Positions 45,985-58,445 of a stretch of 61,344 nucleotides of DNA are shown in pieces (the first letter of the stretch is position 1; each line of letters begins with the position of its first letter). The notes beneath the pieces are model-generated. The model was given only the letters and a program-made list of their open reading frames with translations, did no database searches and was not told the origin of the DNA. The DNA is from Deltaproteobacteria bacterium (GTDB taxonomy: Bacteria; Desulfobacterota; Binatia; UBA9968), in NCBI GenBank assembly GCA_016874755.1, contig VGTH01000005.1, positions 115,547-176,890 of the forward strand. Reading direction: 5' to 3'. The translations under genes and the position numbers were made by a program.

Positions 45985-46767
45985 TTATTCGACAAACAAC
46001 GAGCCGGTGTTGAAGCCTTTTTGGCGCATTTCATTGATCAGTTGTTCGCGTTGCCTCTCAATTTGAGTGGTTCTTTCACGGAGCTGGCTGAATTCCCTTT
46101 CTCTATCGTTGTAGGCCGGTGCTCCGGGTTGGGCAGCGGGGAACGGCGCGGGCGAAAATGACTCCGCTTTGGGCGGCAAGCTGCTAAACGGCGAGGGGAC
46201 CAATAGCTTGACTGGCTCCGGTTGCGAAGGGTTGTGGAGAGCGTTCTTGTAGCGCGAGTTCGCGTCGTCGTTGTGGGCGCGCAGTTGTTCGTCGGTGTGC
46301 AGCTGGTTGCCTTGCGGGCCGGTGGTGCCTCGCACTGCTTGCGAGTATTGATCCCGGGCGCTCTTGAGCTGTTCGGTTAACGCCCTGACCTTATCTTGGT
46401 ATTCCCTTTCTTCCTTGGCCCGTTGCGCTGCCTCGTTGGAAGCACCCTCCTTGCCACCCTCGCTGGCGGATCGTACCGCCGGCCGTGCGGGGGAAGCTGA
46501 GACCGTTTTTGTCGCCGTGGCCTGTTGGATATTGAAACTATTGCGATCTGCGGCGGCGGTATGGCGGATCGCCTGGATCTGGTCTTTGCTTATGCCAATC
46601 TCTCCGCCAAAGCCGCTGAACTTTATTACGCCGGCTTCTTCACGGTAGCTCGGCACGACGATGTTCCGGCCGTTCTTGAGCTCCAGCGTGTAGTCGGAAC
46701 GCGCGGCGGCTGGAAACGACGTGATTGCGAGGGCGATCAAGGGCAACAACGCTTTTGGCTTCATCAT
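45985..46767 (-). CDS. Secreted or periplasmic protein of unknown function
   Basis: 260 residues from ATG 46767 (a second ATG directly follows at 46764). A signal peptide (MMKPKALLPLIALAITSFPAAARS) is followed by a short beta-rich region (DYTLELKNGRNIVVPSYREE). Then comes a charged, Ala/Glu/Gln-rich helical portion with a likely coiled coil (about 110-150), and a Pro-rich linker before a C-terminal coiled coil. I do not recognise the family. A strong promoter (TTGCCG-N17-TATAAT) lies so close to the ATG that the message would be leaderless. Confidence 0.75.
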   Translation of the reverse strand: MMKPKALLPLIALAITSFPAAARSDYTLELKNGRNIVVPSYREEAGVIKFSGFGGEIGISKDQIQAIRHTAAADRNSFNIQQATATKTVSASPARPAVRSASEGGKEGASNEAAQRAKEEREYQDKVRALTEQLKSARDQYSQAVRGTTGPQGNQLHTDEQLRAHNDDANSRYKNALHNPSQPEPVKLLVPSPFSSLPPKAESFSPAPFPAAQPGAPAYNDREREFSQLRERTTQIERQREQLINEMRQKGFNTGSLFVE

Positions 46768-46774
46768 AGACGCT

Positions 46775-46803
46775 ATTATAGCGATCCGGCGGACCTCCGG
46801 CAA
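46775..46803 (-). promoter_or_regulatory. Strong sigma-70-like promoter giving a leaderless message
   Basis: On the minus strand, TTGCCG (46798-46803) and a perfect TATAAT (46775-46780) are 17 bases apart. The expected start of transcription, about 7-8 bases on, falls at the ATG at 46767. No ribosome-binding site fits between them. Confidence 0.7.
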
Positions 46804-46882
46804 TCGGCCAGTTTTGTTCGATATTATCCACATTTACTGGTCGTCTAAGACATGTTAGTTATTTGATTTACGGGGGCGCGCC

Positions 46883-48151
46883 ATGAACCGAGCAAAATTT
46901 AGGCTTGTTGCCCAGGGGATTCTTCTGCTGTTTGTGACCGTCGCTCAGGCTGCTCTCAGTATGGGAGCGGAGCCCAGGGTCCAGATTCTCTCGCCCAAAG
47001 ACGGCAGCCGCATCAGCCAAGATCAGAAAACCGTTCTGATTAGCGGCAAGGTCGGCAACCACCTGGCTCGATCCCCCAACGTCGATATCGCATTTATCGT
47101 CGATGTGTCCGGCAGCACCGCAGCCTATGCCGGCGTCGATCTCGGCGACGCTGGGCAGCTACCCGACGGTGGGTCGTCGCGGTTTCCGACACCGCAGATC
47201 TCCATTGGCGGCGTCAGTGTCGGTGGCGGTCCGCCGCTGCGCAACCTGCGCAATTCCGTGCTCGCCGCGGAGGTCGCCGCCGCGCGCCGCGTGCTTTTGC
47301 AACTCAATTCGGAGACCACCCGGGTCGGGGTGATCTCATTTGGTCAGGAGGTGCGGCTGCTGCAACCGCTCACCCAAGACTTCGATCTCGTCCGGCGCGC
47401 CCTGGACGACATATTACGCAATGGCCCGACCGGCGGAACCAACATGGTTGAAGGCATCCGGACGGGCATCTCCGAGCTGATGGGCTTTGGTCGCAGTGAA
47501 AAGCGGCCCGATGCGGTCAAAGTCCAGTTTCTGCTCACCGATGGCTTTCCAACACTGCCCATCGGCGGCGGCAAGTTTGCCGACCCGGAGGATACCAATC
47601 TCGCCATCAATGCGGCCCGCCTTGCGGGCCGCGCCGGGATCAAAGTTCATGTGTTTGCTTTGGGTGAGGACGCGTTGTCGCACCCCAGAGCGGCCACGGG
47701 CATTGCCGCTGAGAGCGGCGGCACGTACACACCGGTGTCGCGGCCGGCTGACGTGCTCGCGGTGATCGAAAGTATCTCCGTGGTGGGCGTCGATTTCGTG
47801 CAAATCGTCAATCAGACGAGCGGCCAGAAAGCTACCCAAACCAGGCTCGCCGCCGATGGATTCTTTTCTTCAGCCGTGCCGGTGGTGGATGGACGCAATC
47901 AGATCGAAGTCTTCGCGCGGGCGAGCGATGGCTCCATCGGCCGTGACCGGATTACCATCGACTACCAATCGAGCACACAGAAGTCGTTAGACCTGGAAGT
48001 CTTCCTGGAAAAAGAGAAAAGCCTAAAACTACAAGTGGAACGCTTGGGCCGCAGCCCGGCGGAAATCCAGCGCGACGTTGAGCGCAATCGCGAAGACAAC
48101 ACGCGGCGCCCGCCGCCGCAGCCGCCGGCGCCCTCGGAGACGCCGCGCTAG
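46883..48151 (+). CDS. Exported von Willebrand factor type A (VWA) domain protein
   Basis: 422 residues. A signal peptide (to about ALSMGAE) is followed by a short beta region, then a VWA domain with the MIDAS motif DVSGSTAAY, the conserved Thr in TGGTNMVEGIR and a later Asp in LLTDGFPTLPI. The insert between the MIDAS DxSxS and the next helix is long (PDGGSSRFPTPQ region). The C-terminus is a charged coiled coil ending in Pro-rich repeats. Such domains bind ligands or partner proteins in a metal-dependent way; the partner may be the convergent TonB/ExbBD-associated proteins, but only location suggests that. Confidence 0.88.
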   Translation: MNRAKFRLVAQGILLLFVTVAQAALSMGAEPRVQILSPKDGSRISQDQKTVLISGKVGNHLARSPNVDIAFIVDVSGSTAAYAGVDLGDAGQLPDGGSSRFPTPQISIGGVSVGGGPPLRNLRNSVLAAEVAAARRVLLQLNSETTRVGVISFGQEVRLLQPLTQDFDLVRRALDDILRNGPTGGTNMVEGIRTGISELMGFGRSEKRPDAVKVQFLLTDGFPTLPIGGGKFADPEDTNLAINAARLAGRAGIKVHVFALGEDALSHPRAATGIAAESGGTYTPVSRPADVLAVIESISVVGVDFVQIVNQTSGQKATQTRLAADGFFSSAVPVVDGRNQIEVFARASDGSIGRDRITIDYQSSTQKSLDLEVFLEKEKSLKLQVERLGRSPAEIQRDVERNREDNTRRPPPQPPAPSETPR

Positions 48152-48222: not shown

Positions 48223-48648
48223 TCAACGCTTGGCGCGTTCGGCTTCGGCGGCGATGGCGATTTCGGTGGCGCCGGCACGCTTGATGATCGACATGACGCG
48301 CACGGTTTCGCCAAATAAGACATCTTTATCGCCGCGCAAGATCACGGTCTTGTCGGCGTTGGCATTGAGCGCTTCTTTCAACGTGGCTTCGAGGGTATCC
48401 TCGCCAACTTTCTTCTGATTGACGAAAATCTCCTGCTTCGGCGTCAGCGTCACCGTGGTGCCGCGGGTCTCCGATTTTGTCGCAACCGCTTTAGGCAGAT
48501 TGACTTTGCCTCCCGATTCGATCATCGCCGAGCTGGTGATCATGAAAATGATCAGCAGCACCAGAAAGATATCGGTGAGCGGCGTGATATTGATTTCTGC
48601 GACGATGCCGGCATCGTCGCCATTGCCGCCGAGGGGTGTGATAGCCAT
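48223..48648 (-). CDS. ExbD/TolR-family proton-channel subunit
   Basis: 141 residues. The single N-terminal membrane helix with the conserved Asp (EINITPLTDIFLVLLIIFMI) and the periplasmic ExbD domain identify the family. It works with the preceding TolQ/ExbB-type protein as a proton-motive-force-driven motor for TonB-like partners. It is the last gene of the TonB operon and starts 7 bases after the ExbB stop. Confidence 0.94.
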   Translation of the reverse strand: MAITPLGGNGDDAGIVAEINITPLTDIFLVLLIIFMITSSAMIESGGKVNLPKAVATKSETRGTTVTLTPKQEIFVNQKKVGEDTLEATLKEALNANADKTVILRGDKDVLFGETVRVMSIIKRAGATEIAIAAEAERAKR

Positions 48649-48655
48649 GGTGCGC

Positions 48656-49288
48656 TTACACTGCGAGGTTAAGGTTGTGGAGCACTTTGCTCACTTGTAT
48701 GCGGAAAAGGCCGTTGATGTTGGAAATCCGCGTTTGAAAATAGTTGTAAAAAACCACGGCAATGATGGCCACCGCGAGGCCCAAGGCCGTTGCCACCAAA
48801 GCCTCAGAGATGCCGGCAGCCACTACCGCGAAACCGCCGGTGCCGGCGATGGCCATGTTTTCGAAAGCTTTGATGATGCCAACGACGGTGCCGAGCAAAC
48901 CGATGAACGGCGCGCTGCTCGCCACGGTGCCGAGGATCCAGAGATTCTTTTTTAAGTTTTGGGTTTCTTCAAACATCGCCTCGGCAGCAAAGGCGTTGGC
49001 GGTGTCGAGCCCAAAGTTGCCTTCCTTGTCAAAAACATTGAGGAAGATTCTCCCCGCTGGAGAATTGTTATTCTGCCGGCAGATCGCCAGGGCCAAATCG
49101 CGCTGGCCTTTTTTGATCGGATCGAGGAGAGATTCGGCCAGCCGAGTGGTCGCTGCGCCGACATTGCGCAGGGTCCAGAGCCGCTCGAACACGACCGCGA
49201 CGCTGACAATCGACAGAATGATCAATGGGTAAGTAGTCAGCCAACCCTTGTTGATAATATCGATGAGATCCAAACCTTGTGGTTGCAT
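48656..49288 (-). CDS. ExbB/TolQ/MotA-family motor protein
   Basis: 210 residues. Three membrane helices are visible: LTTYPLIILSIVSVAVVFER, GTVASSAPFIGLLGTVVGII and EALVATALGLAVAIIAVVF. These match ExbB/TolQ rather than MotA because of the length and the GLLGTVVGI motif. It forms a pentameric proton channel with ExbD dimers. The gene follows the TonB gene after 85 bases and is coupled to exbD. Whether this belongs to Tol-Pal or TonB uptake is not decided by the sequence alone, but the tonB gene next to it favours ExbB. Confidence 0.94.
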   Translation of the reverse strand: MQPQGLDLIDIINKGWLTTYPLIILSIVSVAVVFERLWTLRNVGAATTRLAESLLDPIKKGQRDLALAICRQNNNSPAGRIFLNVFDKEGNFGLDTANAFAAEAMFEETQNLKKNLWILGTVASSAPFIGLLGTVVGIIKAFENMAIAGTGGFAVVAAGISEALVATALGLAVAIIAVVFYNYFQTRISNINGLFRIQVSKVLHNLNLAV

Positions 49289-49373
49289 CGTCAGTGATTT
49301 CTCCGAATCTTTCGCGGCAGATTACCTGAAAACAACTATTATTGAAATCTTCAAACCAACAACGACGCAGCGT

Positions 49374-50423
49374 TCAGCCACGCACGCCGACGGTGACGGT
49401 GAACTGCATGCGCAATGGCTCGTTGGCGAGTTCTTTCAAACTGTCGGGGATCGGCGGAAAAGGCGAGGCCCTTCTCATGGCATCCACGGCGCTTGAGTTA
49501 ATGCGGGTATCGGAAGAATCGATGACATCGGCTTGAATCAGCCGGCCGGCGCGGTCGAGGGAGAAGACGACAGCGACACGCTGCACACCGGAAACACCAT
49601 CGGGAAAGCGCCAGACCGCTTCGACGCGTTTTTTTAGCTGGGTGAGATAGCTATTGAATTCCGCCGCGGGGATGCCCCGTAATCCAGTGGCACTGCCGCC
49701 GCCGGTACCCGTGCCGGTGCCGCCGCCGGCGATGCCAGTGCCACTCTTGCTGCCGCCGGGCACACCGTAGGGTCCTGTGCCGGTGCCCGTGCCTTTGAGC
49801 GCCCCGGGAATCTGCGCGCCTTCTTTAAGCCCGCGAATGCCTGGGCCGTCGCTCGCACCTTTGGCCATTGCCAAGCTCCTCTGGTTGAGCTCGGCGTCCG
49901 CCGCGGCGCTGCCGGGCAAATTGGTCGGCGCATCGCGGGTCGGCAGGCGAACTAGCGAATCGGGTGAAGTTTCCTTGGCGTTGACCGATTCCTGGCGCGT
50001 ATCCGCTGAGGCTAACACTTTGGGACCGGGAAGGGCCACCGGTTTAGGGGGCGGCTCGGTGGCCGGCTCGGCGTTCTTGCTTGGAGCGGTGGCTTCGAGC
50101 GAGCCACTATCGATTTTGCCGGTTCTCGGCGCCGGTGGAATCGGCGTGCCGAGCTTGGGCATAGTCTTGGGACCGCCGGGGCCCTGGCCCGGGCCGATGC
50201 TCTTGTTGGGCGAACTGCCTTCGCGCACCTCGGGCACGCGCACCTCCGCCAACTGCACGGCGATCGGCACTTCCGGCTCCGGTTTGGCGATCTGCAAGTT
50301 AACCAGGCGCAACGTCAAGAGGGCCAGCAAGCCATGCAACAGAATGGAGGACAGCAGAAAGGGGGCACGGAAAACCGAGGAGAGGCCCGTATCTCCCCAA
50401 GAAGTGGACATCGTGTTGCCCAT
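49374..50423 (-). CDS. TonB-like energy-transducing protein
   Basis: 349 residues from ATG 50423, one base after the upstream stop; the frame is open 48 codons further but that part overlaps the neighbouring gene and has no signal. GGAAG lies in front. It has an N-terminal membrane anchor (about 15-40), a long Pro/Gly/Ser-rich periplasmic linker with GTGTG-type repeats (about 220-250), and the TonB/TolA C-terminal domain (VEAVWRFPDGVSGVQRVAVV, then IDSSDTRINSSAVDAMRRAS). It would carry energy from ExbB/ExbD to an outer-membrane receptor. No receptor is encoded in the window. Confidence 0.87.
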   Translation of the reverse strand: MGNTMSTSWGDTGLSSVFRAPFLLSSILLHGLLALLTLRLVNLQIAKPEPEVPIAVQLAEVRVPEVREGSSPNKSIGPGQGPGGPKTMPKLGTPIPPAPRTGKIDSGSLEATAPSKNAEPATEPPPKPVALPGPKVLASADTRQESVNAKETSPDSLVRLPTRDAPTNLPGSAAADAELNQRSLAMAKGASDGPGIRGLKEGAQIPGALKGTGTGTGPYGVPGGSKSGTGIAGGGTGTGTGGGSATGLRGIPAAEFNSYLTQLKKRVEAVWRFPDGVSGVQRVAVVFSLDRAGRLIQADVIDSSDTRINSSAVDAMRRASPFPPIPDSLKELANEPLRMQFTVTVGVRG

Positions 50424-50424
50424 C

Positions 50425-51585
50425 TTAGCTTCCCGGCAGTGAAACAGTTCTAAGGTCGCTGTTAGGCAGCTGTTCTTGCTTGGCGAGAATTTCCAGACCT
50501 GCGGCGCTGACGTCGCGCCGCGCGACACGACCATTCTCATAGTAGGTCCAGATGTCGGCGATGCCATCGCCGTTCAAATCGCGCTCGTCTTTCAGGATAA
50601 CCTCGCCGTCTTGTGTCACATCGTAATAAACCCAAGAATCGGCACGGCCGCGGCCGGTGGTGTCGCGTTCGACTTTGGCGAGGCGGCCCTTTTCGTAGGT
50701 CGCGCGGTAGGTCATGCGCCCCTGGCCCACTTCGTCGCGTTCTTCGCGCGCGAGCACGTCGTCGTTGTAATAGTAAATCGTTGTCGGTTGGCCCTGGCCG
50801 CGGGTATCGACTTCACGACGCTGCAATTTGCCGTCTTTGAAATAGCTCCAGGTATCGACTCGGCCGTCGCCCTTGGTCGATTCCTCCTGGCGCACGATCT
50901 CGCCGGGTTTCTGGGGGTTGTAGTAAATCCAAAGATCTGGGATGCCATCGCCGTTCATGTCGCGGACCTCGACGTTTTTAAAGGGCGCTGGTGCGGCTGG
51001 CGCCGGCACGGGTTTATTGACTGAAGCAACCTCAATCCTTTCACGATTAGGCTGACTTTGGGAAGGCTGCGAAGCCCGGTTGCCACCTGGCGTGGTTGTG
51101 GGGGGGGTTGTTGTGCCGCTTCCCAACACCTGACCCTCCAACGCCCGCTGCCGCTCAAGTTCCTTTTCGATGAGCGCCTCGAGCTGCTGGTCTTTCTGGG
51201 TTTCCTTGCTGACCTGGGCTATGACTCGCTCTTCTTCCTGGCCGCTTGTCACCATCCCATAGATCGCGCCGACCAACATGCCGCCCAAAGCGCCGAAGTG
51301 GCCGAACGGGCCGGCAAGCATGCCCCCCCAGCGCGCTCCTTCAGCCATCGATCCCATAACATGCTGGTTGGCTCTGCTGCTGCGCGGCGGCGATTGGGGC
51401 TGTGGCGTTCGGCTGGTTGGAGATCCGCTTGCCGTGGGCGGCTGCGCTCCCGAGCCGGCCGGATAATTGGGCACGGGATAGCTGCCGGGCGGATATTGCG
51501 TCGCGCTCGCCTGGCAGCCAGCCAACAACGCTGCAACCAGCAAAAGCACCGGGGCTGAGGCGAATGTTTGCCAGGGGTCTTTCAT
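50425..51585 (-). CDS. Lipoprotein with 24-residue acidic repeats (partner of the TonB operon)
   Basis: 386 residues. A lipoprotein signal with lipobox LLAGC (Cys about 24) is followed by a Pro/Ser-rich linker and a Gly-rich hydrophobic segment (WGGMLAGPFGHFGALGGMLV) like a glycine-zipper. A coiled coil comes next, then about six repeats of 24-28 residues, each like YYxxGxxxRxExDxxGDGxxDxW. The acidic DxNxDG loops resemble calcium-binding repeats. The same repeat forms most of the next upstream protein. Its outer-membrane location is inferred from the lipoprotein signal; function is unknown. Confidence 0.8.
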   Translation of the reverse strand: MKDPWQTFASAPVLLLVAALLAGCQASATQYPPGSYPVPNYPAGSGAQPPTASGSPTSRTPQPQSPPRSSRANQHVMGSMAEGARWGGMLAGPFGHFGALGGMLVGAIYGMVTSGQEEERVIAQVSKETQKDQQLEALIEKELERQRALEGQVLGSGTTTPPTTTPGGNRASQPSQSQPNRERIEVASVNKPVPAPAAPAPFKNVEVRDMNGDGIPDLWIYYNPQKPGEIVRQEESTKGDGRVDTWSYFKDGKLQRREVDTRGQGQPTTIYYYNDDVLAREERDEVGQGRMTYRATYEKGRLAKVERDTTGRGRADSWVYYDVTQDGEVILKDERDLNGDGIADIWTYYENGRVARRDVSAAGLEILAKQEQLPNSDLRTVSLPGS

Positions 51586-51595
51586 AACGCCGATT

Positions 51596-52825
51596 CTACT
51601 TTACTTCGCTGGCCGCGGACAAGACGGCTTGCTTGCGCGATTGGCCGACGGCCGAAGCCATGACAGAGTCCGAGCCCAGCATCGTGCGCAGCTCCGCTTC
51701 GACGCTGCCGAACGGCGTCGGCACGCTGGGCGGGTCGATATTGGCGAGCTGCTCTTGGCCGGAGACCTGGCCGCCCTTAAACGTATACCGAGCGCTAACT
51801 TTGCCGGTGAAGTTTTGATCCTCTAGCTGCTCGACCATTTCGCCGTTCTCAAAGCGCACCCAGACATCGACACGGCGGTCTTTGTTGGTGTCGGCTTCCT
51901 GGCGGGCAACCTTGCCGTTCTCGTACCAGAAGCGCATGTCAAAGAAGCCATCGCCATCGCTGTCGCGCTCTTCGCGAATCAGCTCATTGTCTTTGAAGAA
52001 AAAAATCAGGTCCCACTTGCCGCTGGCTTTGCTGTCGCGCAGGCGCTTTTCCAACCGCCCCTGGTAAAAAGACTCGACCATATCCATGCGGCCGCGTCCG
52101 GCGCCATCTTCCTCGCGGCGAATCACTTCATCGCCATTGAAATAAACTATGCGGCCGACTCTGCCATCGCCCCGCATATCTTCCTCTTGTTTGACGAGCC
52201 GGCCGTCGCGATAATAACCCCAGAGGTCGATTTTTCCGCTAAATTTTCGGTCGAGCTCCTTGCGAACGAGTTGACCGTCTTCATAAAAAGAATAACTGTC
52301 GGGTTTGCCGTCGCTGTTGGTATCCTCATCGACTCGGCTGACTTTGCCGTCGCGAAACTGCACCGTGCGGTTCGTAACGCCGCGGCCCTTGGTATCTTCC
52401 TCGCTGCGCACCGGCTGGCCATTCTTGTAGTAAACCCATTGGGTAGGTTTGCCGGTGCGGTTGGGGTCCTGTCCCTTGCGCTCGATCTCGCCGCTGGCGT
52501 CAAGAAAAATCCAGGTATCGAACTGTCCGTCGTTCTTACTGGCGATTTCTTGCCGCCTCGGCTTGCCGTTTTCGTAGTAGACCATGGCATCGATCTTGCC
52601 GTCGAAATTACTGTCCTGTTCGATGCGTTCGATTTGCCCCTGCCGGTCATAGTGGGTCCAGCGGTCCATTTTACCGTCGTTGTTGGTGTCGCGCTCTTGG
52701 CGCACGACGTTGCCTTTTTCGTCATAAAAGAAGCTCGCCACCGGCTGCTGGGCAAACGCCGATGCAATGAGAAAAGCAGCGAGAGTCAGCGCCAGAAGGG
52801 CGGGAACTGGGAGCCGTTTAAGCAT
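51596..52825 (-). CDS. Exported protein made of about 13 tandem 24-residue repeats
   Basis: 409 residues from ATG 52825; the open frame continues 37 codons upstream but lacks a signal there. A signal peptide (to about SAFAQQ) is followed by about 13 near-contiguous repeats with the consensus YYENGKxxRxExDxNxDGKxDxW, each about 24 residues. The motif mixes a MORN_2/YwqK-like half (YYENGKL) with an acidic loop like that of calcium-binding proteins (DTNNDGKMD). The repeats end near residue 350, before a short C-terminal region. It begins the five-gene operon that ends with exbD. I do not recognise a characterised relative. Confidence 0.8.
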   Translation of the reverse strand: MLKRLPVPALLALTLAAFLIASAFAQQPVASFFYDEKGNVVRQERDTNNDGKMDRWTHYDRQGQIERIEQDSNFDGKIDAMVYYENGKPRRQEIASKNDGQFDTWIFLDASGEIERKGQDPNRTGKPTQWVYYKNGQPVRSEEDTKGRGVTNRTVQFRDGKVSRVDEDTNSDGKPDSYSFYEDGQLVRKELDRKFSGKIDLWGYYRDGRLVKQEEDMRGDGRVGRIVYFNGDEVIRREEDGAGRGRMDMVESFYQGRLEKRLRDSKASGKWDLIFFFKDNELIREERDSDGDGFFDMRFWYENGKVARQEADTNKDRRVDVWVRFENGEMVEQLEDQNFTGKVSARYTFKGGQVSGQEQLANIDPPSVPTPFGSVEAELRTMLGSDSVMASAVGQSRKQAVLSAASEVK

Positions 52826-53157: not shown

Positions 53158-54924
53158 ATGCAGTTAGATTACGACCCCATCGCAAAAACGACTGGAGAGA
53201 GCCGCGCCTACGCTCCCGCTCAAAGTGCGTTGAGCGAATCGCGCTGGCAGTTGCTCGTGCTGTTGGTTGGCCTGTTGATTCTATTCAGTGGGCTGGGCAG
53301 CGCGGCATTGTTCGAACCCGACGAAGGACGCAACGCCGAGAAAGCGCGGGAAATTCTCTTGCTCGGGGACTGGGTGACGCCGCACCAGAATTTTCTTCCG
53401 ACTCTCGACAAGCCGATGTTTTTCTACTGGCTCATCGCGGCAGCGTTTAAGATTTTTGGACTCTCCGAGTGGGCGGCGCGCCTGCCGTCAACCCTGGCAG
53501 CGTTGGGCTGTCTATTCTTGATCCATCGATTTGCGCGCCGACAGTGGGGGTTGTGGGAAGCTCTGTGGAGCTGCTTGGTCCTCGTCACGAGCCTGCAATT
53601 TGTCATCTTCTCCCGTCTAGTAATCTTCGACATGACCTTGACGTTTTTCATTACCTGGGCGCTGTTTTCCTTTTATCGCATCGCCGAGGATGCTGCGTTT
53701 GGAGCGCGTCGCCGCGACGTCGTCAGTCTCTATGTCGCGATGGCTCTTGGCACTTTGGTCAAGGGGCCGATCGCGCTGATCGCCCCCGGCATGGTGATCT
53801 TGGGTTTCCTGTTACTTACCCGAAGATGGGCGCTGCTCAAGCAAATTAACCTGCCGCTAGGATGTTTGCTTTACCTGGCTATCGTTGTGCCCTGGTACGT
53901 CGCTGCCGAGATCAGGAACCCGGGCTACCTGCGTTATTTTTTTTGGGATGAGCACTTCGCTCGCTATCTAACGCCGCGCTTTAATCGTTCGAAGGGCTGG
54001 TACTATTTCCCCCTAGTTATCAGCGTCGGCTTTCTGCCATGGACTTTGAACCTGCCGATGGCAATCAAACGTTGCTGGCAGCAAAGGGCTGAGCCGGTGA
54101 TGTTGTTTCTCGCACTCTGGGTGATTTTGCCCTTTGCCTTTTTCTCAGCGTCAAACTCGAAATTGCCACATTATATCTTGCCGATCTTTCCCGCTTTGGC
54201 GTTGCTGGTGGGACGCTCCATCAGTGCCGCGTTGCCAACGCAGCCGCGCGCTCCGTGGATGATGGACTTTTTGGCACCTTGGATTCTTTCCTTGAGCTGC
54301 ATGTTGTATTTGCTTGTAGGCGCTTTTGCGCCGCAGGTATTGGTCGGACGCATTCGCTCGGGGGTGGTGGCGAACAGAGCTCTACTTGTGGCGGCAGCGC
54401 TAACGATGATCCTGGTGCTTTCGGTGGCGCTGCGCTACCGATGGCAAAACCGCTGGCAGGACCGCGGCTTTCCTTATCTATGCAGCGCCACCGGCTTGGC
54501 CCTTTTCATGACACTGCTCACGCAAATCGTCGCCTCGGCATCTTTCAATCGCGTGTCTAAACCGTTGGCCCAAGCGGCCGCGCCGCATCTCAACGGCCAA
54601 GAACAGCTGGCATTTTACGACACCTACGTTGAAGGTATTCCTTTTTATTTCCGCATCGACAAGCCAGCGTGGTTGGTGCAATCACCGGGCCGAACTAGCA
54701 TCATGGCGAGCAATTACCTTGCGCTGCGCCGACCGCCGCCAGTCGCCGGTTATGGGCCGGTGCTGCTGCCATTCGAGGAATTCGCCGCGCGCTGGAAAAG
54801 CGGAAAAACCCCATTGCTTGTGATCGTCAGAGAAAACGGCCTGGGACAGTTCAGTGCATCCGTTGGCGCCACGCCGACGGAGCTTGCGCGTTTCGAAAAT
54901 TATCGTTTGGTTACCAATCGATGA
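53158..54924 (+). CDS. Integral-membrane glycosyltransferase (ArnT/GT39-GT83-like)
   Basis: 588 residues with about 11-12 membrane segments. The first periplasmic loop has the acidic catalytic/donor motif FEPDEGRNAEKAREI, typical of ArnT and related dolichyl-/undecaprenyl-phosphate sugar transferases. Such enzymes take a polyprenyl-phosphate sugar and add it to lipid A, proteins or cell-surface glycans at the periplasmic face. The C-terminal periplasmic domain is smaller than in E. coli ArnT, so the acceptor is uncertain. It is a single-gene unit, convergent with the VTT gene (4-base gap). Confidence 0.87.
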   Translation: MQLDYDPIAKTTGESRAYAPAQSALSESRWQLLVLLVGLLILFSGLGSAALFEPDEGRNAEKAREILLLGDWVTPHQNFLPTLDKPMFFYWLIAAAFKIFGLSEWAARLPSTLAALGCLFLIHRFARRQWGLWEALWSCLVLVTSLQFVIFSRLVIFDMTLTFFITWALFSFYRIAEDAAFGARRRDVVSLYVAMALGTLVKGPIALIAPGMVILGFLLLTRRWALLKQINLPLGCLLYLAIVVPWYVAAEIRNPGYLRYFFWDEHFARYLTPRFNRSKGWYYFPLVISVGFLPWTLNLPMAIKRCWQQRAEPVMLFLALWVILPFAFFSASNSKLPHYILPIFPALALLVGRSISAALPTQPRAPWMMDFLAPWILSLSCMLYLLVGAFAPQVLVGRIRSGVVANRALLVAAALTMILVLSVALRYRWQNRWQDRGFPYLCSATGLALFMTLLTQIVASASFNRVSKPLAQAAAPHLNGQEQLAFYDTYVEGIPFYFRIDKPAWLVQSPGRTSIMASNYLALRRPPPVAGYGPVLLPFEEFAARWKSGKTPLLVIVRENGLGQFSASVGATPTELARFENYRLVTNR

Positions 54925-54928
54925 ATCG

Positions 54929-55657
54929 CTACCGTTCGTGGCGGTGTTTGATCCAGTGAAGAATCTTTTCGCGGTAGATATAGGCGAGCAGCAATACCAA
55001 CGCCGAGGCAACCGCGATGATGGCGAATTGCAAATAGTCTTGTTCGCGGAACTTGGCACCCTGGATCGTTAGCATGTAGGTGCCGGGCAACCTGCCGATG
55101 ATCGAGACGATCAGAAACGTGCTGAGTTTCATGCGGCTCAGCCCCAGCACCAGACATAAATAATCCTTGGGGAACCCCGGAATCAAAAAAAGCAGAAAAC
55201 AGATGAACGTGCCCGTGTTCGTGGTCAAGAAGTCGAACTTGTGCAAAACTTCTTGACTGACAAAGCGCTCGACAAACGGGCGCCCGAGAATGCTTGCCAG
55301 CTCAAAGGCAACCCATGAGCCAATGGCCAGGCCAATCGTCGAAAGAATAAATCCCAGGGTCTCGCCGTAGACGAAACCGCCGACCACGCCGGTCAGTTCG
55401 CCCGGTATCGGCGCCGCCACAACCTGCAGGATTTGCAGCACAACAAACACTGCCGGTGAGTAGGGGCCAAGCGACTGCAGGAAGCGGCCAAGTTTGTCGC
55501 CGCTGGAGGCGACGGCTTCGAAGTCCTCAAAATCTTCTCCGGCCGGCGCCAATGCCATCAGCGGCTGGGGTATGTACCGGCTAAAAAAGAACAGCAGCGC
55601 CAGCAGCACAATGAAAATGACTCCTCTGGTAATGAGCTGGCGGCGCTGAGAAATCAT
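54929..55657 (-). CDS. VTT/DedA-like (TVP38/TMEM64 family) membrane protein
   Basis: 242 residues from ATG 55657; a TTG six bases upstream is possible. The VTT (SNARE-associated) core is recognisable: FVVLQILQVVAAPIPGELTG with the conserved Gly/Pro/Glu, GGFVYGETLGFILSTIGLAI, and FLIPGFPKDYLCLVLGL with the re-entrant loop Pro. This family includes undecaprenyl-phosphate flippases and lipid scramblases, which fits the sugar-lipid enzyme encoded next to it, but the exact lipid is unknown. Confidence 0.9.
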   Translation of the reverse strand: MISQRRQLITRGVIFIVLLALLFFFSRYIPQPLMALAPAGEDFEDFEAVASSGDKLGRFLQSLGPYSPAVFVVLQILQVVAAPIPGELTGVVGGFVYGETLGFILSTIGLAIGSWVAFELASILGRPFVERFVSQEVLHKFDFLTTNTGTFICFLLFLIPGFPKDYLCLVLGLSRMKLSTFLIVSIIGRLPGTYMLTIQGAKFREQDYLQFAIIAVASALVLLLAYIYREKILHWIKHRHER

Positions 55658-55742
55658 CGGCAAATGTATAGCAACGAAACGGTTCTAAGACGATAGAACT
55701 AGTCTTCAGGCCAAATGCTATCCGGGGCTGTCGCCGTGCTTA

Positions 55743-58445
55743 TCAGCGAGTACTTTGCATCTGTTGCAGTAGCGCTTCGACTTTCTTCAGTTCGTCGCCA
55801 TAGCCCGCCCAATTGCCCTGGCGCAGGAGCTCCTGCGCGCGTTGGAAATGCTGCAGTGCCTCACGCGCGGGATTTTTGACCTCGGCCGCCTTTTCGCCGG
55901 TTACAGCCGCGGTTGTGGGCGGCGCAAGCGGCGTCGTTGAAAGCGGCCTGCCGCCGAAAATCTTCTGAAGCGCCAGCTCAAGATTCTCCTCCATGGCGAT
56001 CTGGTTGCCGAACGCGACAATGACCCGCTTGAGCTCGGGCAAGCTGCCTTGTTCGGCAGCCAGATAGAGAGGTTGAACATACAAAAGAGACTGGTCGATC
56101 GGGATGGCCAGCGGGATGCCGCGCACGACTTGAGAGCCGGCTTGATTCCACAAACTGAGCTGCTGAGAAATCACCGTGTCCTGATCGATGCGGGCGTCCA
56201 CCTGTTTGGGGCCGTAAACCAGCTTGGCTTTGGGAAAGTTTAGCGCGATCAGCCTGCCGTAATTCGGCGCGTCGCTGCGCGCCGCCAACCAGGCGCGCAT
56301 GTTGTCGCGCTTATTGGGTGTAAAGGGCAGCAAGAGTACGAACTCTTCTTTTTGCTCCCCGGGCAGACGCATGATCGTGTAATAGGGGTCGAGCTCTTGC
56401 TCGCGGCCGCCGGTGCTCTTGCGTGGAATGCTGAGCAGGTCCTCCTTGTTATAAAACACCTGAGGATCGCGCACGTGAAAGGTCGCGTACATATGCGCCT
56501 GGACGGTAAAAAGATCGACGGGGTATCGAATGTGCTTTTGTAGGTCGGCAGGCATCGTGCTTAACGGCTTGAATAGGCCAGGGAAAATCTTTGCATAGGA
56601 CGAAACCAGCGGGTCGGTCGGATCGCTGAGATAAAAGTCGACGTTGCCATGATAAGCGTCAACGATGACTTTGACCGAGTTGCGGATATAGTTGCCCATC
56701 CGTCCTGCCGGCGCGGAGTAGGGGTAGTGACGCGAGGTGGTATAGCCGTCGATCATCCAGAAGAGCCTGCCGCCTTGTGCGATCACCATGAAGGGATCGC
56801 TGTCGAACGTGATAAACGGCGCAATCTTTCTGATCCGGTCCTGAATTTTACGGTGCAGGAGGATTCTGCTCTGGTTGGTGATGTCCTCCGACAGGGTGAT
56901 GCGAAGCGCGGCAAAGTGCGCCGAGAAAAGCAGCTTGCGCCAGAACGAGTCGATGGGAATGCCGCCGCGGCCATCGTAGGTGGTGTAAATATTTTGGTCG
57001 CCGGCAGGATAGTCGAGCTCGCGGGCCTTGGTTTTGACCAAAATGTACTGGTTCGCAAGCTCGCCAAAGTAGATTCGAGGTTGGGTGACCTTGAACGTAT
57101 CGGTTGACTGCGGCGGAATGTCCTTGATGAAAAATTCCGGCTGGCCGCCCGCGCTTACCTGGTTTACCGGGCTCACGACAACGCCATAACCATGGGTAAA
57201 GGTTAGATGGTCGTTGATCCAGTTTTGTCCCTGCAAATGGGCGTGGGAGATCTCGCGCGCGGAGATTGCTACCTGACGCATGCTGCCGTCGATTTCGTAG
57301 CGATCATGATCGAGGTCGACAAACTTGTAATAGGTGCGAATCTCTTGCAGCTGGGAGTAGCTTGCGAGCAATGGGCGCGGCTCCCAAAGTCGGATGTTCT
57401 TGATTGTGGAATCGTTGCGTTTGATGCCTTCCGCGGAAAGGCCTTCCTCGGCGGGGAAATCCTTGCTCTCGATCTTGTCCAGCCCATATGCTTGGCGGGT
57501 AAACCGGATGGTTCGCTCAAGGAATGGTTTTTCTGCGTCGACTTCGTTCGGGACAACACGAAAGCGCTGGAGCAACGTCGGATAGACATTGAGCCCGACC
57601 AGGTGTAATGCAACCAGGGCACCGATGCCGAACAGGACGAGCTTGTAACCGGTTCGGTAGAACTGGGCAAAACAAAGAACGGCCGCTGCCCCTGACATCA
57701 CCGCTAACGCGCGCAGCGCCGGCAGATTTGCGTTGACGTCCGTATAGCCTGCGCCGAAAGCGGCGCCGCGGGGGGAGTAGAGCAACTCGTAAGCTTCTAA
57801 CAGATAGCCGCCCGCTTTGGTGAGCAGAATCAATCCAACGAGCACCAGCAAGTGTTTCCGGGCGCGTTCCGAAAGAAAAATGCCGCGGGGGCCGTAAACG
57901 AGGCCGCGGTAGAGAAAATAAACCGCCGCACTGGCCACCAAACTCAGCCCCAAAGCGAATATTAGCCACTGGTAGACCGCGTTCAGCGCCGGCAACAGAA
58001 AGATAAAGAACGAAAGGTCGAGCCCAAAAACGGGATCGGCGATGGCAAAGGACGTGGGATTGAGAAACATGGGCAGCAGCTGCCAATTGGCGGCAACCGC
58101 AGGGGCGGCAAGCAAACCGATCAAGAATGCGCCCGGGAGCAACATCCGGCGCAGCAGCGGGTCGATCAACTCGGGAGGCGGCAGCTCGATCACATTGTCT
58201 TCGGCACTAAATCGGTAACCCGGAGGCGGCACTGCGGCAATTTTTAAATTGAGATACACCAATCCCGCTAACAGCAGGCCGCCGAGCGCTCCCAGGCCCA
58301 GTTTGTATGCCAGGGTCGTCGTAAAAACTCCGCCATACCCGACTTCCTGGAACCAGAGCCAATCTATATAGAAGTCAATGCCCTGCCGCACAAACAGGAC
58401 GCCAACAAAGAGGAGAAAAAACAGAGCACCGGTCAGCTGGCGCAT
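55743..58445 (-). CDS. UPF0182-family large membrane protein
   Basis: 900 residues with about seven membrane segments in the first 300 residues (e.g. FFLLFVGVLFVRQGIDFYID) and then a large soluble domain. This layout and the C-terminal Glu/Gln-rich helical tail match the UPF0182 family, whose function is unknown. The conserved segments FTHGYGVVVSPVNQVS and PVDLFTVQAHMYATFHVRDP are present. It stands alone, separated from the ABC permease by a strong terminator. Length is normal for the family. Confidence 0.93.
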   Translation of the reverse strand: MRQLTGALFFLLFVGVLFVRQGIDFYIDWLWFQEVGYGGVFTTTLAYKLGLGALGGLLLAGLVYLNLKIAAVPPPGYRFSAEDNVIELPPPELIDPLLRRMLLPGAFLIGLLAAPAVAANWQLLPMFLNPTSFAIADPVFGLDLSFFIFLLPALNAVYQWLIFALGLSLVASAAVYFLYRGLVYGPRGIFLSERARKHLLVLVGLILLTKAGGYLLEAYELLYSPRGAAFGAGYTDVNANLPALRALAVMSGAAAVLCFAQFYRTGYKLVLFGIGALVALHLVGLNVYPTLLQRFRVVPNEVDAEKPFLERTIRFTRQAYGLDKIESKDFPAEEGLSAEGIKRNDSTIKNIRLWEPRPLLASYSQLQEIRTYYKFVDLDHDRYEIDGSMRQVAISAREISHAHLQGQNWINDHLTFTHGYGVVVSPVNQVSAGGQPEFFIKDIPPQSTDTFKVTQPRIYFGELANQYILVKTKARELDYPAGDQNIYTTYDGRGGIPIDSFWRKLLFSAHFAALRITLSEDITNQSRILLHRKIQDRIRKIAPFITFDSDPFMVIAQGGRLFWMIDGYTTSRHYPYSAPAGRMGNYIRNSVKVIVDAYHGNVDFYLSDPTDPLVSSYAKIFPGLFKPLSTMPADLQKHIRYPVDLFTVQAHMYATFHVRDPQVFYNKEDLLSIPRKSTGGREQELDPYYTIMRLPGEQKEEFVLLLPFTPNKRDNMRAWLAARSDAPNYGRLIALNFPKAKLVYGPKQVDARIDQDTVISQQLSLWNQAGSQVVRGIPLAIPIDQSLLYVQPLYLAAEQGSLPELKRVIVAFGNQIAMEENLELALQKIFGGRPLSTTPLAPPTTAAVTGEKAAEVKNPAREALQHFQRAQELLRQGNWAGYGDELKKVEALLQQMQSTR

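Follow-up and report, generated by a model that had tools for sequence, protein, structure and literature searches.

A TonB-ExbB-ExbD operon with two exported repeat proteins and a VWA protein: a putative receptor-independent envelope machine in a deltaproteobacterial family

Introduction

What does a TonB motor work on when the genes beside it encode repeat proteins in place of receptors? This question is raised by a 61,344-nucleotide stretch of DNA from a deltaproteobacterium (contig VGTH01000005.1 of assembly GCA_016874755.1), the whole of which is called the window here. It contains genes for two exported repeat proteins, P1 and P2, followed by genes for a TonB-type transducer and the motor proteins ExbB and ExbD, and this operon faces the gene of an exported protein with a von Willebrand factor A (VWA) domain. 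The window belongs to family f1, deltaproteobacteria known from metagenome-assembled genomes, of which f2 is the sister family; G and L codes label the relatives' genomes and the loci fetched from them, respectively. On balance, the gene set is best read as encoding a receptor-independent envelope force-transduction machine, with tethering or adhesion, not nutrient import, as its most likely job.

Results

A constant gene set and an exchanged motor

The five operon genes lie on the minus strand in the order P1-P2-TonB-ExbB-ExbD with gaps of 10, 1, 85 and 7 bases, as the preliminary description of this DNA had it; 71 bases separate ExbD from the end of the convergent VWA gene. In this organisation, arrangement 1, the whole operon faces VWA. 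A second organisation was found in five genomes (G011, G014, G018, G022 and G025), where VWA-ExbB-ExbD form one operon that faces P1-P2. In arrangement 2, TonB is located upstream of P1 in the four genomes where it is seen, the G022 locus being cut inside P2. The ExbB and ExbD proteins of arrangement 2 are 30-38% identical to the window type and form a separate clade in phylogenetic trees.

The TonB of the family is marked by a linker motif (Table 1), matched in 15 of 20 family TonB loci (12 of 16 with arrangement 1 and 3 of 4 with arrangement 2) and in no other TonB within the 1.69 Mb of fetched DNA, searched in six frames with overlapping loci included. A looser form of the motif adds L039, and L048 is cut. 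Three arrangement-2 TonBs carry the motif and the fourth, from G018, is cut. Judged from these sequences, TonB looks like one transducer in both arrangements. Since one TonB type, P1, P2 and VWA remain constant alongside two ExbB/ExbD clades, it is the motor that has been exchanged. A single genus (code g11) includes both motor types (G014, locus L037, and G020, locus L050), so the exchange was recent or repeated.

Co-occurrence within the family

The occurrence of P1, P2 and VWA was surveyed in 58 relatives, comprising 35 genomes of the window's order and 23 class genomes outside it. P1 and P2 were found in 21 of them: 19 f1 genomes, one f2 genome, and G042, with a weak match. In all 20 f1/f2 genomes they lie no more than 5 kb from an operon-type TonB, which is directly beside them in 16 and upstream of P1 in four. 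The opposite pattern, in which most relatives would have their repeat proteins at a distance from TonB genes, was looked for as the outcome that would speak against the preliminary description, and did not appear. The P1/P2 contig also carries ExbB in 19 and VWA in 18 of the 20 genomes. G002 carries ExbB, ExbD and VWA on a separate contig that has a TonB fragment at its end (L161). In G005, where the contig breaks off within ExbB, VWA was found nowhere in the genome.

The exported VWA protein is present in 22 of the 58 relatives, all of them f1/f2, and its profile matches two genomes, both f1, in a phylum-wide sample of 395. Its distribution departs from that of P1/P2 in G003, G005, G022 and G023, each time at a contig end, and, through a weak match, in G042. 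The VWA protein had been described as a convergent neighbour, which is correct for the window, but it is no bystander and belongs to the set: the idea of a mere neighbour was rejected, since VWA tracks P1/P2 and joins the ExbB/ExbD operon in five genomes.

Three relatives, G006, G007 and G019, are without P1, P2, VWA and the TonB beside ExbB/ExbD. They keep ExbD, one Plug-domain match each and TonB_2 proteins elsewhere, and the linker motif was not found in their fetched non-TolA TonB_2 proteins. The orthologous ExbB is 66-67% identical in G006 and G007; that of G019 consists of two contig-end pieces with 60 and 76% identity.

Motor and transducer proteins

The assignment of the motor genes relies on Pfam domains, namely PF02472 in ExbD (99.6 bits, cut-off 25.4) and PF01618 in ExbB (109.9 bits, cut-off 22.9). 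The transducer matches TonB_2 (PF13103, 33.9 bits, cut-off 22) and TIGR01352 (30.9 bits, cut-off 27.1), with TonB_C (PF03544) under its cut-off (22.5, cut-off 24.6). The NCBI equivalog models were not reached for exbB (79.7 versus 206.2) or exbD (75.5 versus 216), and the best model for the window ExbB is tolQ, at 115.4 bits and under its cut-off of 221. In window numbering, the motor residues are TonB S26 and H30, ExbD D26, and ExbB T134, E162 and T167, which we take to be the functional ones by analogy with E. coli. The serine and histidine of SxxxH hardly vary across an alignment of 11 TonBs, in which one sequence is without that part.

Repeat proteins P1 and P2

P1 matches MORN_2 of Pfam with 32.4 bits, above the gathering cut-off of 29.6. 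P2 has no Pfam family above cut-off; its FG-GAP matches are all under their cut-offs, and MORN_2 is not among its matches. The scores of P1 and P2 against the Lsa25.6 adhesin family of NCBIfam (54.7 and 37.5 bits) are both far below the cut-off of 150. Profile comparison nevertheless identifies a common repeat in the two proteins (probability 99.9, E 5e-32). The acidic loops previously noted in them are well above chance: P1 contains four strict DxNxDGxxD-type loops (mean 0.0125 and maximum 1 in 2000 shuffles), and P2 contains two (mean 0.0045, maximum 1). In distant genomes, 11-16 such loops were counted in each of six repeat proteins.

The predicted structure of P1 consists of 14 beta hairpins of about 24 residues each, with a mean predicted local distance difference test score (pLDDT) of 87.7. 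Among the Foldseek candidates, it resembles the engineered OspA single-layer sheet (Z 13.7, root mean square deviation 11.3 over 299 residues) and MORN1 (Z 8.5-8.8, deviation about 6 over 189 residues); for repeats, such Z values may reflect a common arrangement only, as the tool notes, and a fold match is not a common function. The top Foldseek matches, Rhs/teneurin shells, had TM-scores below 0.2 and were set aside as generic hairpin stacking. A sequence search of the PDB with the P1 profile returned nothing at E <= 1. P1 is thus like Lsa25.6, MORN_2, OspA and MORN1 in its repeat sequence and single-layer hairpin sheet, and differs from them in being longer and linked to a motor.

In P2, the lipobox cysteine (Cys24) is invariant in 17 aligned relatives, and the model (mean pLDDT 70.4) is confident in the repeat domain only. 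The lipobox, like the signal peptides of P1 and VWA, was assigned by eye. Lipoprotein sorting by the +2 residue is a rule derived from E. coli. By eye, this residue is glutamine in the window and acidic in 11 of the 17 aligned sequences, so the lipid anchor of P2 may sit in the outer membrane, as the glutamine would suggest, or in the inner membrane, as the acidic residues would. The two proteins may be pictured as stiff beta-hairpin rods with putative Ca2+ bracing in the DxNxDG loops.

The exported VWA protein

The VWA domain was recognised by PF00092 (44.9 bits, Pfam), and directly before it lies a short, signal-like N-terminus, as judged by eye. The metal-site motif, of the metal-ion-dependent adhesion site (MIDAS) type, is matched in 17 of 18 aligned sequences. 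When the PDB was searched with the profile of VWA, the matches were weak ones to VWA domains in general and one annexin construct. A homologue in L047 (12790-14391) carries a bacterial SH3 domain at its N-terminus, and this favours a role on the wall side.

Lineage of the motor and anchored VWA transducers

Orthologues of the window ExbB, 44-53% identical, were found in 21 of the 23 class genomes outside the order. In 18 of these 21 loci (L141-L159, L064, L065) the motor adjoins an anchored VWA protein, in which a membrane helix at the N-terminus is combined with a linker rich in glycine; 15 of the 21 contain a tetratricopeptide repeat (TPR) protein. The three loci without a detected anchored VWA (L151, L154, L155) all come from family f7. 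In 11 aligned sequences the membrane helix has an invariant histidine and, four residues before it, a nearly invariant serine (alanine in L064). The anchored-VWA profile matches 21 of the 58 relatives, that is, 21 of the 23 class genomes and none of the 35 genomes of the order; with the exported VWA confined to f1/f2, the two forms are mutually exclusive in this sample. The pairing with the motor is not a strict one, since anchored VWA is also found beside a distant ExbB (27-28%) in G049 and G056 and beside a second, 44% identical ExbB in G038.

In the ExbB tree, the family and 18 class ExbBs, 15 beside an anchored VWA and the three from f7 without one, form one clade (100/97). TolQ is the sister of this clade (98/91), a position at which long branches meet, according to a warning of the tool. 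The first tree omitted the short rows L054 and L056 and contained two badly extracted rows with branch length 10; a later one omitted 13 of 54 rows, L065 among them, with L156 and L159 below the score threshold and G019 absent.

By description, the anchored-VWA loci of the class encode the vWA force transducers reported by Williams-Jones et al. (2025, PMC12204202), who give the function of VWA-linked proton motors as unknown. The window shares with these systems an ExbB of one clade, a VWA partner and a SxxxH-type motor-binding helix. In contrast to them, its transducer has a TonB domain and its VWA is separate and exported. The repeat proteins of the window stand where 15 of the 21 class loci have a TPR protein, and none of the eight window proteins scanned for domains had a TPR match.

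Repeat proteins beside ExbB/ExbD across the phylum

The P1 profile matched 33 of the 395 phylum genomes: 25 that were examined for ExbB, G000 and G009 from the f1/f2 family, and six with weak matches. In 20 of the 25, the repeat protein gene is followed on its own strand by ExbB at a distance of up to 1 kb; of the other five, G211 is cut by a contig end, and G042, G087, G341 and G352 have no such ExbB. In L119, L120, L122-L136 and L138, ExbB-ExbD are immediately preceded by a MORN-like repeat protein rich in DxNxDG, and TonB is commonly present as well. Distant genomes commonly have the order repeat protein-ExbB-ExbD-TonB, accompanied by receptors and, at times, by DUF4198 or solute-binding proteins. 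The MORN-like repeat protein is therefore a recurrent partner or accessory of ExbB/ExbD across the phylum, also beside import systems. These distant operons are like the window in having a MORN-like DxNxDG repeat protein directly beside ExbB/ExbD, and unlike it in their ExbB clade, in a TonB placed after ExbD and in receptors often nearby, and the exported VWA profile matches just two of the 395 phylum genomes, both from f1.

Approximately unbiased (AU) tests were run on a tree from which five of 54 rows were left out (L062, L065, L067, L131, L135). The groups were named after the first tree had been inspected and long branches meet in it (tool warning), so the p values are indicative. A single origin of all repeat-linked ExbBs was rejected (p 0.011), as was one clade of window-type with distant ExbBs (p 0.017) or with arrangement-2 ExbBs (p 0.045); arrangement-2 and distant ExbBs as one clade were not rejected (p 0.07).

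No description of the pairing of a MORN-like repeat protein with ExbB/ExbD was found in the open-licence papers searched. The available portions of PMC11247825, on nickel in cable bacteria, and PMC3123361, on the DxDxDG motif, make no mention of it.

Receptors and import

Receptors were sought with nine queries (two from the f1/f2 family and seven from distant loci) at E 1e-6. No match was found in 23 family loci totalling 369,145 bases, several of them cut by contig ends. The same queries matched 10 of the 20 loci that surround distant relatives of P1 (250,695 bases). The view that the repeat proteins are dedicated TonB partners in place of receptors thus holds in the f1/f2 family, but not elsewhere in the phylum, and as a general rule that repeat proteins exclude receptors it was rejected on the distant loci.

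Receptors are present elsewhere in these genomes, with one to six Plug matches in 24 of the 26 f1 and f2 genomes. By reading of positions, all 25 genomes searched encode one or more TonB_2 proteins other than those of the TolA and operon types, and in G002, G005, G010 and G025 some of these further TonBs share a contig with a Plug match no more than 1 kb away. In G022 and G023 the operon's own TonB was not seen, and the further TonB_2 proteins are without the linker motif. Given these other TonBs and the three relatives with a receptor but without the set, the energising of receptors seems to be served elsewhere.

Features of the locus and neighbouring genes

The features are listed in Table 1. 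Genes of PMT type, VTT/DedA and UPF0182 (53158-58445 of the window) stay near the operon in many family loci.

Table 1. Features of the operon and its surroundings in the window.
Feature	Coordinates	Strand	Characteristics
P1, exported repeat protein	51596..52825	-	About 14 tandem 24-residue beta-hairpin (MORN-like) repeats (predicted), DxNxDGxxD loops, signal peptide by eye
P2, repeat lipoprotein	50425..51585	-	Lipobox by eye, glycine-rich helical region, disordered linker, C-terminal P1-type hairpin repeats
TonB-type transducer	49374..50423	-	Membrane helix with SxxxH, linker motif LPxPKxLA...SLVxLP, TonB_2 C-terminal domain
ExbB, proton-channel subunit	48656..49288	-	Lineage adjoining VWA transducers elsewhere in the class
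ExbD, stator partner	48223..48648	-	Pfam ExbD domain
Exported VWA protein	46883..48151	+	Signal peptide by eye, DVSGST MIDAS-type motif, C-terminal Glucodextran_B-like match
Conserved VWA neighbour, possible further part	45985..46833	-	YgdI/YgdR-like match under its cut-off

Discussion

In the mechanism that we propose, the proton gradient would move TonB through ExbB/ExbD, and the C-terminal domain of TonB would act or pull on the P1/P2 repeat rods, with P2 probably lipid-anchored in a membrane. The exported VWA protein would be the fourth component at work, probably the end that binds a ligand or surface as the final target. TonB would take the transducer role held by the anchored VWA elsewhere in the class, and in the family P1, P2, TonB and VWA stay together over an exchangeable ExbB/ExbD motor. 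An energised envelope machine, as the preliminary description had suggested, remains the best reading; for motility in particular, which it named as one purpose, there is no direct evidence here. Its most likely task would be to pull on or grip material of the envelope or surface, for outer-membrane tethering or for adhesion, with nutrient import as the less likely purpose.

Several observations weigh against this reading. The main one is that distant P1 relatives stand upstream of ExbB/ExbD in loci with receptor matches in half of the cases, so that import systems, too, can include the repeat protein. The receptor comparison is also partly circular, because six of the ten positive loci supplied queries, leaving four independent matches. 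G009 has a receptor and, besides a TolQ-type protein, only the window-type ExbB, and the motor may therefore serve import too, shared between two TonBs. Adjacency alone is weak evidence, since synteny across the family covers the aroQ, PMT, DedA and UPF0182 genes as well as the block itself. The joint absence of the set from three relatives may be one event, as the ExbB tree places G006 and G007 side by side as sisters and the ExbB of G019 is split over two contigs; moreover, G006 is only 82% complete (G007 97%, G019 98%). The linker motif is unmatched in three family TonBs (L032, L034, L045), and P2, judged from its +2 residue, may have its place in the inner membrane and not in the outer one. 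Descent of the exported VWA from the anchored VWA is not supported (profile comparison probability 39.7). Finally, G012 contains a second P1 copy (L046, 10636-11772) without P2, TonB, ExbB or VWA within 17 kb. That copy adjoins a DedA-type gene, and G012 is an 8.3 Mb assembly with 9% contamination, so it may come from a second organism.

The operon could instead be a normal TonB energiser for receptors encoded elsewhere, with P1 and P2 as periplasmic accessory or metal-binding proteins and VWA as a separate neighbour. The likeness to TonB-ExbB-ExbD import systems covers all three motor and transducer components, including the residues presumed essential, and PMC6957404 offers a precedent, the TonB2 system of Vibrio vulnificus, which requires extra Ttp proteins. 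The receptors, and in some cases DUF4198 or solute-binding proteins, at the distant repeat-ExbB-ExbD operons, the near-universal Plug matches and the motor complement of G009 point the same way. Unlike import systems, the family locus has no receptor match and has dedicated repeat proteins and VWA instead. The other TonB genes found in all 25 genomes, some of them close to a Plug match, together with the three relatives that keep a receptor, ExbB/ExbD and another TonB without P1, P2 and VWA, and the tracking of P1/P2 by VWA, make such an energiser rather unlikely.

A second Tol-Pal-like system for outer-membrane tethering and cell division, in which P2 would act as Pal and P1 as TolB, appears quite improbable: no TolB or Pal domain was detected among the eight window proteins scanned, and Tol-type genes are encoded separately in the family (tolQ-like in L052 of G000, and tolQ-tolR-tolA-tolB in L069 of G005). 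The set is also missing from three relatives and is hence not essential. These points stand against the resemblance of a TolQRA-like proton motor, a transducer, a soluble partner and a lipoprotein to Tol-Pal, and against the affinity of the window ExbB to TolQ in model score and tree. A gliding or adhesion machine, in which VWA would be a surface adhesin moved via the P1/P2 rods, is a special case of the envelope machine favoured here, and in this specific form an unlikely one. A MIDAS-type VWA is part of the set, and the authors of PMC12204202 suggest gliding as one possible role of VWA transducers. No surface-exposure evidence or motility genes turned up, no search having been aimed at them, and the SH3 domain on the VWA homologue of L047 fits a wall-side role.

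The receptor-independent force-transduction machine thus remains our preferred explanation. The parts and the motor are of known kinds; their combination, a transducer that is split and a motor that can be exchanged were not found in the open-licence literature searched. It is possible, at a little under even confidence, that the family harbours an undescribed proton-driven machine for purposes other than import, with a split version of the VWA-transducer design: TonB would carry the force, a free VWA would be the effector, calcium-braced MORN-like rods would replace the TPR partner, and the motor would be exchangeable.

For the biology of the family, the locus constitutes a natural experiment in which the motor has been swapped, the transducer differs and the exported partners stay. 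A motor swap under constant partners implies that P1, P2, VWA and the TonB with the linker motif probably work together, and it makes the question testable. Beyond the family, MORN-like acidic repeat proteins emerge as common partners of ExbB/ExbD across the phylum.

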